Below, piece after piece: positions 37,605 to 40,011 of a stretch of 64,000 nt of DNA. The notes under the pieces were generated by a model. The model was not told the origin of the DNA. It did not search any database and saw only the letters and a list, made by a program, of their open reading frames with translations. This DNA comes from Mucilaginibacter sp. PPCGB 2223 (GTDB lineage: Bacteria; Bacteroidota; Bacteroidia; Sphingobacteriales; Sphingobacteriaceae). The stretch covers positions 434,001-498,000 of the forward strand of contig NZ_MDJS01000004.1 in assembly GCF_001705515.1 (NCBI RefSeq), in the 5' to 3' direction. Position numbers and translations under genes: made by a program. Every line of letters starts with the position of its first letter. The stretch's first letter is position 1.

Positions 37605-39575
37605 TCAGTGCCGGTTGATGGCTGGCCTGTAGGGGTGGTTCCTCAGGTCGACGGTCAGCGAATCGGTATCAATTACCGTAGGCGCCTGCCCGGCTTTTTT
37701 ACTGTCGTTCATTTTAACCCTAACGTTACCGTTTGCCGATATCAGGCTATCGGTTAAACTATAGGTAATATTCCTGGCCTTAATATCGTATTTGTCTGTC
37801 ACCAGCTCGCCATCGTAAAGGTGTAAATCTTTACTGTTAGGGTCCATCCTTACACTTTCGAATTTTAATCGTGCGGTTTTAAACTCGTTGTATAAATTAT
37901 CTTTCGTTTCGTTCATCCCGTCATTCATATACGACATGGCAAGTTTGCTGATATGGCCCTTTGGCGATTTTGCCACTGTGTCGTTAACACCTGTTTTTAC
38001 GCCTTTGCCTTTAATGGCTGTATCGCTTATTGCTCTAATGACAGCGGATTTTAGGTTGTTCATAAAACCAGCTTTAGCATGAGCTGGCAAAGTGCCTGGA
38101 TTCAGGCTTGCTTTTTCGCTTATTTTTGTCCGGATAGCATTTTGATAAGCAATTATCGCATCAACAAACCGTCCGGCAATGGTATGCTGGTTTTGTGGAT
38201 CGGCAATGTACTTTAAGTCGTTTGTATTGGTAAGGTAACCCAGTTCAAGCAAAACAGCCGGGGCCTTATTGTCGCGCAATACGGTTATACCCTGCCGGTA
38301 AACCTGGCTGCTCATGGTAATGCCATTTAACTTCTGCATTTCGCGAATCAAAGCCGCGGCCAGTTTTTGTGTTTCGGGTTTTGTATTTAGCCTGTCGGTG
38401 ATTACCTCCATACCGGTTGCAGGCGTTGCCGGCTTTCCGCTTACGCTGTTTACATGTATCGATACAAAAGCATCGCCCTGCAGGCTTGCCCGAGCGGCTA
38501 AAGGCACATCAGTGTTGTCGGTACGGGTTAGCAGGGTTTTAATGCCGCGCTGTTCGGCGATGGTTTTAATTTGTTTCACCATAGCGAGGGCTATATCGCT
38601 CTCTAAAACCTTACCTACCCGGGCACCACTGTTGCCGCCGTGCCCGGCATCTAACACTAACACAAAATCTTTACCCTCGTAGGTGTCATCCGCGAAAGCG
38701 TAAACATGCTCCACTGCTAAAAAGTAAACCAGCATTGCCATTAATGGTACGGCCAACAGGTACCCCAATTTTTTAGCTGCCGCGGATTGTTTGCCGAAAA
38801 GCATTTGTATGCGTGTTTTTAAACCATAAGCGCTAAACTGGTTGCTGATGCCCACCCGTGCCGGGTTTGATAGCTTGAGCAGCAAACTTGCATAGCTTTT
38901 CGAATTATATTGCAATGCCAGGTGCCTGTCGACCTCAAACTCGTGCGATTGGTGCAACGCTTTAGAAAACAGGTACACAAACGGGTTAAACCATAATATC
39001 GCTTTTAGTAGTTCGGTAAATAAATTATCGGCCGAATGCATTAGCCGGGCGTGTACCAGTTCGTGCGTAATTACCTGCTTCAGCTCGCTGCTGTCAAGGC
39101 CGTTGCTGTCCAAAAATATATAGTTAAAAAAGGAGGAGTTGTTTGGCGAATGCCCGCTTACCAGGCTATACCCGTTTTCGCGCTTGCCGTATTTTATGCC
39201 TTTGTAAAGTATCTTACCCAATGCGATCAAAAGTTTTAATAACAACAAACCCGCAATTGTACAATAGGCTGTGTTGGCTATCAAAAACCAGTCGGCAGGT
39301 TGTTGCTGACGGGTGACGGCAACCGGGGCGATGCTGCCTTGTGCCGTGTTAGCTTCGGTAGTATTTACCACCGCCGGCTTAACCCGGGCAGGTGCGGGTA
39401 AAGTGGTTTTGATATCGATGTGCGCCAATGGTATCAACAGGCTGATCGCTAAGGCCGATAACAAATACCACCTGTTTAAAGTGAAAAAAGTAAGCTTTCG
39501 GAATAACAGGTGATACACAACGTAAAAAGCCGCTGTGCAGCCGGTTACTTTGATCAGGTAGGTGAAAAGTTCCAT
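37605..39575 (-). CDS. M56 (BlaR1-like) peptidase fused to N-acetylmuramoyl-L-alanine amidase
   Basis: 656 aa. Residues 1-55 and 97-118 give three helices; a cytosolic M56 zinc peptidase follows with HELVH at 171-175 and a likely third ligand Glu in HEFEVDRH (211-218). A fourth helix (about 272-290) leads to an amidase_3 domain (about 303-480) with zinc ligands H312, E325 and H374 and catalytic Glu444 in LLELGYLTN. All key residues are present. The last 90 residues (about 565-645) resemble an OstA/LptA-like beta repeat. In BlaR1 the outer domain binds beta-lactams; here it is a cell-wall hydrolase domain. The start lies 2 nt after the blaI-type stop. Confidence 0.9.
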   Translation of the reverse strand: MELFTYLIKVTGCTAAFYVVYHLLFRKLTFFTLNRWYLLSALAISLLIPLAHIDIKTTLPAPARVKPAVVNTTEANTAQGSIAPVAVTRQQQPADWFLIANTAYCTIAGLLLLKLLIALGKILYKGIKYGKRENGYSLVSGHSPNNSSFFNYIFLDSNGLDSSELKQVITHELVHARLMHSADNLFTELLKAILWFNPFVYLFSKALHQSHEFEVDRHLALQYNSKSYASLLLKLSNPARVGISNQFSAYGLKTRIQMLFGKQSAAAKKLGYLLAVPLMAMLVYFLAVEHVYAFADDTYEGKDFVLVLDAGHGGNSGARVGKVLESDIALAMVKQIKTIAEQRGIKTLLTRTDNTDVPLAARASLQGDAFVSIHVNSVSGKPATPATGMEVITDRLNTKPETQKLAAALIREMQKLNGITMSSQVYRQGITVLRDNKAPAVLLELGYLTNTNDLKYIADPQNQHTIAGRFVDAIIAYQNAIRTKISEKASLNPGTLPAHAKAGFMNNLKSAVIRAISDTAIKGKGVKTGVNDTVAKSPKGHISKLAMSYMNDGMNETKDNLYNEFKTARLKFESVRMDPNSKDLHLYDGELVTDKYDIKARNITYSLTDSLISANGNVRVKMNDSKKAGQAPTVIDTDSLTVDLRNHPYRPAINRH

Positions 39576-39577
39576 AA

Positions 39578-39937
39578 TTATTGCTTGTTGATCAGGTTTT
39601 TAATGCTGTTGATATCGGCCTCGCTCAGGTTTTCTTCTTTTACCATAAACGAGAGCAGGCTTTGCGCCGAGCCGTCGAAATACTCGTTGAAGAATTTACC
39701 GAACGAGTGCCTGCGATAATCGGCTTTGTTGATGAGCGGAAAGTATTCGTAGGTTTTGCCATAGGCTTTATATCCTACATAACCTTTCTTTTCGAGCAGG
39801 CGCACTACCGACGAAATGGTATTGTATGGCGGCTTAGGTTCATCAGGCAGCTTATCGATAATATCTTTAACAAATGCCGATTGCAGATCCCACAATATCT
39901 GCATAATGCGTTCTTCGGTTTTGGTTAATTCTTCCAT
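39578..39937 (-). CDS. BlaI/MecI-type transcriptional repressor
   Basis: 119 aa winged-helix protein: LTKTEERIMQILWDLQSAFVKDIIDKL and YNTISSVVRLLEKKGYVGY are the BlaI/MecI/CopY family signature. It probably represses its own operon and is inactivated by the M56 peptidase encoded 2 nt downstream. The ATG at 39937 has a -7 element only 4 nt upstream. Confidence 0.93.
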   Translation of the reverse strand: MEELTKTEERIMQILWDLQSAFVKDIIDKLPDEPKPPYNTISSVVRLLEKKGYVGYKAYGKTYEYFPLINKADYRRHSFGKFFNEYFDGSAQSLLSFMVKEENLSEADINSIKNLINKQ

Positions 39938-39941
39938 AATC

Positions 39942-40011
39942 CAAACTTAAAACTTATTTTTCAGTTTTAAAACTGCTTTTACAGTTATTTAACTTATTTT
40001 TCAGTTTTAAA
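39942..40011 (-). promoter_or_regulatory. Promoter and double operator of the blaI-M56 operon
   Basis: TAAGTTTG on the minus strand (39949-39942) matches TAnnTTTG and ends 4 nt before the ATG. A perfect 21-bp direct repeat, starting aacttatttttcagttttaa, lies at 39951-39971 and 39991-40011. The first copy abuts the -7 element and continues into the 14-bp palindrome CAGTTTTAAAACTG (39962-39975). This arrangement fits repressor binding that blocks polymerase. The rest of 40012-40278 is AT-rich and shows no gene. Confidence 0.6.

Follow-up and report, generated by a model that had tools for sequence, protein, structure and literature searches.

The window, that is the whole stretch of 64,000 nucleotides analysed here, carries on its minus strand a gene for a BlaI/MecI-type repressor of 119 aa (blaI, 39578..39937) and a gene for a 656 aa receptor in which M56, Amidase_3 and Lpt-like modules are fused (37605..39575); all of the window features described below are also on the minus strand. 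The fusion is one open frame, supported by Pfam and by the AF2 model. blaI is directly upstream of it with 2 nt between them and, judged by position, the two genes are taken to be cotranscribed. In Pfam the fusion matches Peptidase_M56 (E 1e-12, 48 bits, cut-off 31) and Amidase_3 (E 1e-34, 120 bits, cut-off 27), and the blaI product matches Penicillinase_R (E 4e-30). The pairing of a BlaI-type repressor with an M56-amidase protein in the initial annotation therefore stands, with exact coordinates and Pfam support for all three domains. The search for M56 plus Amidase_3 beside a blaI gene that it had proposed found this architecture in many genomes, and because of this recurrence the fusion is not regarded as a sequencing artefact. 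The host genome, 5.5 Mb and from a soil-type member of the Bacteroidota in the same family group as many Pedobacter-like and Mucilaginibacter-like genomes, contains four M56 genes and one Amidase_3 gene besides the fusion. A scan of the genes on either side of the pair in the window showed no beta-lactamase or PBP target gene. A phage origin of the locus was rejected, the PHROGs matches being to generic endolysin and regulator families alone.

The repressor aligns over its full length, winged helix and dimer domain, with MecI (1okr; phmmer E 2e-13). BlaR1 cuts BlaI and MecI at an N-F bond, and the S96-F97 bond of the window BlaI aligns with it. Among 68 BlaI homologues S96 is kept in 64 and F97 in 62. 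The parts for direct cleavage of BlaI by the M56 protein are thus present, and S96-F97 is quite probably the bond at which it is cut.

The M56 membrane protease module, residues 1–288 (38712..39575), has four predicted membrane helices and a gluzincin site, as indicated by the BlaR1 profile, AF2 and Foldseek, in which it also matches BlaR1. Staphylococcus aureus BlaR1 (8exp) is matched across the whole membrane domain by a profile built from 20 relatives (E 7e-14). The zinc motif H171ELVH (39051..39065) is at the position first reported for it and the protease motifs are intact. The third zinc ligand, not named in the earlier work, is E212, 41 residues past H171 within the motif E212xxxD216 (38928..38942), a spacing as in BlaR1 H201/E242 (PMC9834060). 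H171, E172, H175, E212 and D216 are conserved in the M56 family, the E212 and D216 columns being invariant, and Y228 and F247 are nearly so. In the 8exp alignment Y228 falls on Tyr261 and F247 (38835..38837) on Phe284, which occupies P1' in the autocleavage of BlaR1.

Helices in the AF2 model are at 2–25, 31–50, 96–129 and 265–287, in addition to the protease core, with pLDDT mostly >90 across the module. The last of these, TM4 (residues 265–287, 38715..38783), is the final membrane helix before the periplasmic part; hydropathy reaches 2.25 at 270–288, the inner flank is K/R-rich and the outer flank is acidic. Positively charged flanks separate TM1 from TM2, follow TM3 and precede TM4; the segment past TM4 is acidic. 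The outer loop between TM2 and TM3 is roughly 40 residues (EL1 of BlaR1 is residues 56–96). An N-out/C-out topology like that of BlaR1 is predicted. From the charge pattern and this BlaR1-like topology the amidase is therefore predicted to be periplasmic and not cytosolic, in keeping with the outer location first proposed.

The Amidase_3 domain, residues 305–480 (38136..38663), was assigned from Pfam, from PDB sequence matches to LytH, AmiC2 and CwlV, from Foldseek and from a tally of its active site residues; its pLDDT is mostly >90. LytH is nearest both by phmmer, as the best match, and by Foldseek (TMt 0.87). It is a canonical Amidase_3 near LytH, CwlV, CwlD and AmiC2, and not of the AmiA/B/C type with a regulatory insertion. 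The zinc ligands H312, E325 and H374 and the catalytic E444 are all intact where the initial annotation had read them, and 25 out of 29 fused amidases keep all four. The window amidase is likely to be active. The other four are without the catalytic Glu, which is Ser in Sphingobacterium detergens (L070) and in Marivirga (L072), Asn in a Flammeovirgaceae genome (L071) and Val in the second copy at locus L037, where the third zinc ligand is also lost; zinc ligands are mostly retained in this group. All 43 free amidases, a set found through a motif search, keep the four residues, and loss of the Glu in 4/29 fused against 0/43 free domains would occur by chance in about 2% of cases by our own calculation, which is modest statistics. 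With the Glu lost in four lineages or copies, hydrolysis is therefore not required for signalling everywhere. These domains may represent occasional conversion to binding domains, such that in some lineages binding suffices for signalling. The L037 case (L037:523-2973, G241) is a tandem duplicate whose amidase is degraded, next to a first copy that is intact, and would represent a natural split of sensor and enzyme.

The C-terminal tail, residues 557–649 (37629..37907), is a short and divergent LptA/LptC-like beta-jellyroll module, as judged by profiles, an AF2 model and fold matches. A Pfam search with the window tail alone gave no match. A profile of the homologous C-terminal modules from sister M56 proteins, with the window sequence excluded, detects residues 557–649 at 18.6 bits, and also detects LptD N-terminal domains, including that of the LptD beside the housekeeping amidase of this genome. 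In the full-length AF2 model the tail has a pLDDT of about 33 and it was therefore remodelled alone from its own alignment, giving a pLDDT of 80 and a pTM of 0.72 with LptC, LptA, LptH and LptD as top fold matches. LptD rows being part of that alignment, a second profile was built with them left out; its best PDB matches are LptA structures (E 8.7e-6). The tail is therefore a predicted LptA/LptC-type beta-jellyroll of partial length (about 90 residues). The OstA/LptA-like resemblance noted from the sequence at the outset is borne out by both profiles and by the structure prediction that had been called for. The housekeeping Amidase_3 gene of this genome (C1:646901-647581, L201) adjoins lptD, as does that of several other Bacteroidota (L085, L098, L106, L114 and L127). 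The LptD N-terminal jellyroll is related to the fusion tail, and the fusion mirrors this amidase-lptD neighbourhood.

Upstream of blaI there is an operator array of three dyads, AACTGAAAAATAAGTT, AACTGTAAAAGCAGTT and AACTGAAAAATAAGTT, with a 20 bp period (39951..40006), identified through conservation and a genome scan. The last dyad begins about 28 bp upstream of the blaI ATG and is abutted by a -7 promoter element, TAAGTTTG (39942..39949), found through a composite search and its conserved position. TAnnTTTG is the -7 promoter consensus of the Bacteroidota type. This class of blaI has two to four upstream dyads of the form AACT-N8-AGTT, ending at the TAnnTTTG element. All 39 rows, from 38 distinct loci, have such dyads; the total is 114 against 6.9 expected in shuffles, and the spacing is exactly 20 bp in 69 of 71 cases. 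Successive dyads are separated by a gap of 4 nt; scanning with a 5 nt gap gave nothing above control. No classical TACA/TGTA bla operator was found upstream of blaI. The element ends 4 nt before the ATG, and this 4 nt spacing (window 39937-39949) is conserved across loci; the blaI-M56 transcript may therefore be leaderless.

Exact tandem arrays occur at two places in this genome, 5' of this blaI and, with a variant core, 5' of the blaI of a paralogous M56-TonB pair. The composite of operator and promoter has an exact match at this locus alone, with one- and two-mismatch matches at control level. Of the 15 tandem arrays found in 12 relatives that carry the fusion, 14 are upstream of a blaI-M56 pair. 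The array is thus almost exclusively found before such pairs; the switch therefore looks self-regulating, and the amidase itself is therefore the likely output, a point missed in the initial annotation. Self-regulation of the pair is regarded as very probable. As far as tandem arrays go, the sequence points to the operon of this BlaI itself as its main target, and weak single sites are possible. Single-dyad matches elsewhere in the genome are weak candidates near control level; the best of these, at C2:775868 with one mismatch, was rejected, since its neighbours, an aldo/keto reductase gene on one side and other frames on the other, form no clear operon.

The paralogous blaI-M56-TonB pair (L168, C3:276557-276592) has the same 20 bp tandem layout with the core AACTA-N6-TAGTT, which suggests insulated paralogous repressors sharing one geometry. 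The sole exception among the 15 arrays (L245:749-784) has the TonB-class core and is directly before a gene for a thioredoxin-like secreted protein, TlpA-type by eye (830-1609, G047), a possible non-self target of the TonB-class BlaI. An apparent stop codon in this gene is its natural end.

The combination of BlaI and M56-amidase is found in the Sphingobacteriaceae, Chitinophagaceae, Flammeovirgaceae, Marivirga and one further family. Same-genus genomes carry it (3 of 61 sampled, with 57% and 46% identity), as do many genomes from a second genus in the family; named carriers are Pedobacter rhodius, P. zeae and S. detergens. It is present in a single genome each of the Chitinophagaceae and Flammeovirgaceae, in Marivirga and in four genomes of the further family of the class. 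At every fusion locus whose upstream side is in the sequence compared, blaI is directly upstream. One genus has the operon order blaI, M56-amidase, M56-Lpt-like. No third operon gene is common to the relatives, a PF00144 serine hydrolase gene being upstream in S. detergens alone.

Sister M56 proteins of the same operator class have Lpt-like modules or repeats, or M23, replacing the amidase. No degenerate, hidden amidase was found when sought in other sister M56 proteins. On the M56 tree, the Mucilaginibacter locus L066 groups with same-genus rows, which makes Mucilaginibacter or a near relative the likely host. At least five changes of the amidase label are needed on this tree, four of them forced by well-supported branches. 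A single origin of the fusion was rejected, as one clade is rejected on this tree; the amidase domains of the fusions group together with weak support. From these trees, the amidase module has repeatedly been lost or exchanged. The M56 ectodomain as read from its domain content is modular, with envelope remodelling as the theme (amidase, M23, M23 plus amidase, Lpt-like repeats), which the initial annotation had also missed. In a same-genus sister M56 protein with the same operator class (L038:1441-3660), the amidase is replaced by an M23-like domain at the C-terminus (E 8.5e-7). Marivirga sericea (L072:3980-5950) has M56, M23 (E 4e-30) and Amidase_3 (E 4e-35) in one chain beside blaI, with Ser for the catalytic Glu. 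In E. coli, M23-like domains are amidase activators, and the Marivirga protein may, by analogy, combine a regulator and the domain it regulates in one receptor.

Proteases of the BlaR1 kind are membrane proteins that induce penicillin resistance through cleavage of a repressor bound to DNA. As in BlaR1-BlaI and MecR1-MecI of S. aureus and Bacillus licheniformis, the window has a BlaI-type repressor gene in the same operon as an M56 gluzincin that is an N-out/C-out receptor, with the zinc motifs, autocleavage Phe and BlaI cleavage bond all conserved. There are likewise multiple operators at the repressor's own promoter, of which B. licheniformis has three (PMC3305447), although the operator AACT-N8-AGTT differs. 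Unlike BlaR1 and MecR1, the fusion is without a penicillin-binding, class D sensor in Pfam and NCBIfam, having the amidase and Lpt-like module instead, and no beta-lactamase or PBP2a target is seen nearby. Because that sensor and a beta-lactamase or PBP target are absent, and because the score against the NCBIfam BlaR1 model is 26 bits with a cut-off of 400, the fusion appears to work like BlaR1-BlaI yet is no BlaR1.

LytH of S. aureus, with ActH, is similar in being the nearest amidase by sequence and fold and in being tied to a polytopic membrane protein, but LytH and ActH are two separate proteins, without an M56 protease or BlaI. The E. coli amidases AmiA/B/C with EnvC, NlpD and ActS show the same linkage of Amidase_3 with M23-like domains, as in the Marivirga fusion, and with stress of the outer membrane and LPS export (ActS, PMC8360153). 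The E. coli activators are however separate proteins with no repressor cleavage, and the fused domain is of the LytH/CwlV type. LptA, LptC and LptD, including the LptD N-terminal domain, are matched by the tail in profile and predicted fold, whereas the tail is about 90 residues, divergent and attached to a receptor; the likeness is one of profile and predicted fold.

These features are combined in a model of a BlaR1/BlaI-like pair with its penicillin-binding sensor replaced by a peptidoglycan amidase and an Lpt-like module; the chances of the full loop are judged to be about even. BlaI dimers would repress their own operon by occupying the two to four tandem dyads that overlap its promoter. 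The periplasmic part would meet a particular state of the envelope, in the form of uncrosslinked or damaged peptidoglycan or possibly a disturbed lipopolysaccharide-transport bridge. The signal would cross via TM4 to the cytosolic M56 site, which would cut BlaI at S96-F97, and the derepressed operon would produce more membrane-anchored amidase, adding amidase capacity at the inner membrane. The fusion would be the sensor and, with an intact active site as here, also the main effector, trimming stem peptides off peptidoglycan. Such a positive loop would be limited once the signal is lost.

Because presence of the amidase varies across the M56 tree, the M56 module can signal without it, and because the catalytic Glu is lost in 4/29 fused amidases, enzymatic output is not universal. 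It is somewhat unlikely that the amidase does no sensing and is a dose-controlled, membrane-anchored trimmer like LytH, with M56 and BlaI setting its level or release. The closest structures are indeed those of LytH, a membrane-linked amidase needing ActH (PMC8496864), the active site is intact in most fusions (25/29), the tandem operator is confined to its own operon and the genome has just one further Amidase_3. Relatives sharing the operator and M56 nevertheless carry no amidase, and four fusions are without the catalytic Glu, therefore something beyond amidase output is under selection. The substitutions in these four (Ser, Ser, Asn and Val, with zinc ligands mostly kept, and 0/43 in free amidases) are consistent with a pure sensor, the amidase and Lpt-like parts binding peptidoglycan stems or lipopolysaccharide intermediates and hydrolysis being irrelevant or residual. 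The modular exchange of the amidase with Lpt-like and M23 modules is also in line with this, as is the use by BlaR1 of a beta-lactamase-like fold, its sensor being related to class D beta-lactamases (PMC9834060). Retention of all four residues in the great majority, the window protein included, argues against it, and a pure sensor is considered unlikely.

Ordinary domain shuffling within the large and diverse M56 family, with the amidase a passenger uncoupled from BlaI, would fit the many different C-terminal parts borne by M56 genes of the family and the four other M56 genes of this genome. The fusion has however been retained in several families together with blaI and, at the loci examined, the operator, and a passenger would not keep its catalytic residues; this explanation is very improbable.

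The fusion might, as suggested in the initial annotation, sense muropeptides by processing them. Depletion of LPS export in E. coli induces peptidoglycan remodelling, and ActS activates amidases in outer-membrane stress (PMC8360153), which gives a natural reason for the coupling of amidases with LPS export. For B. licheniformis, the peptidoglycan dipeptide gamma-D-Glu-mDAP is described as a coactivator that inactivates BlaI; a cell-wall hydrolase ('BlaR2') has been proposed as its source (PMC3305447). A receptor bearing a hydrolase would join these two ideas. A further extension, which is rather doubtful, is that the fusion unites the BlaR1-type protease with the 'BlaR2' hydrolase, such that freed stem peptides, taken up and trimmed, would inactivate the same BlaI that M56 cuts, and the Lpt-like tail would monitor LPS export.

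No published description of an M56 and amidase combination was found in the open-access papers searched, in agreement with the initial annotation, which knew of no system with this architecture. Rare M23 proteins have been reviewed as also having M56, a role in peptidoglycan cleavage not having been shown for them (PMC9662197). The conserved tandem operator AACT-N8-AGTT abutting the promoter is new here. What is new in the system, on the best reading, is the ectodomain of a BlaR1-like envelope sensor that is probably also an effector. It is probable that a single protein monitors the cell wall, perhaps trimming it as well, and governs its own gene. To our knowledge, BlaR1-type proteases are known almost solely as beta-lactam receptors. 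The same chassis would here serve as a general envelope receptor family of the Bacteroidota, its sensor slot filled by peptidoglycan hydrolases and Lpt-like modules and wired to its own promoter. Should the amidase signal, a single protein would link peptidoglycan cleavage to repressor cleavage. This would make testable both a natural wall signal read by BlaI/BlaR-type systems and a tie of peptidoglycan amidases to LPS-export stress, with the relatives that carry a catalytically dead amidase as natural controls.
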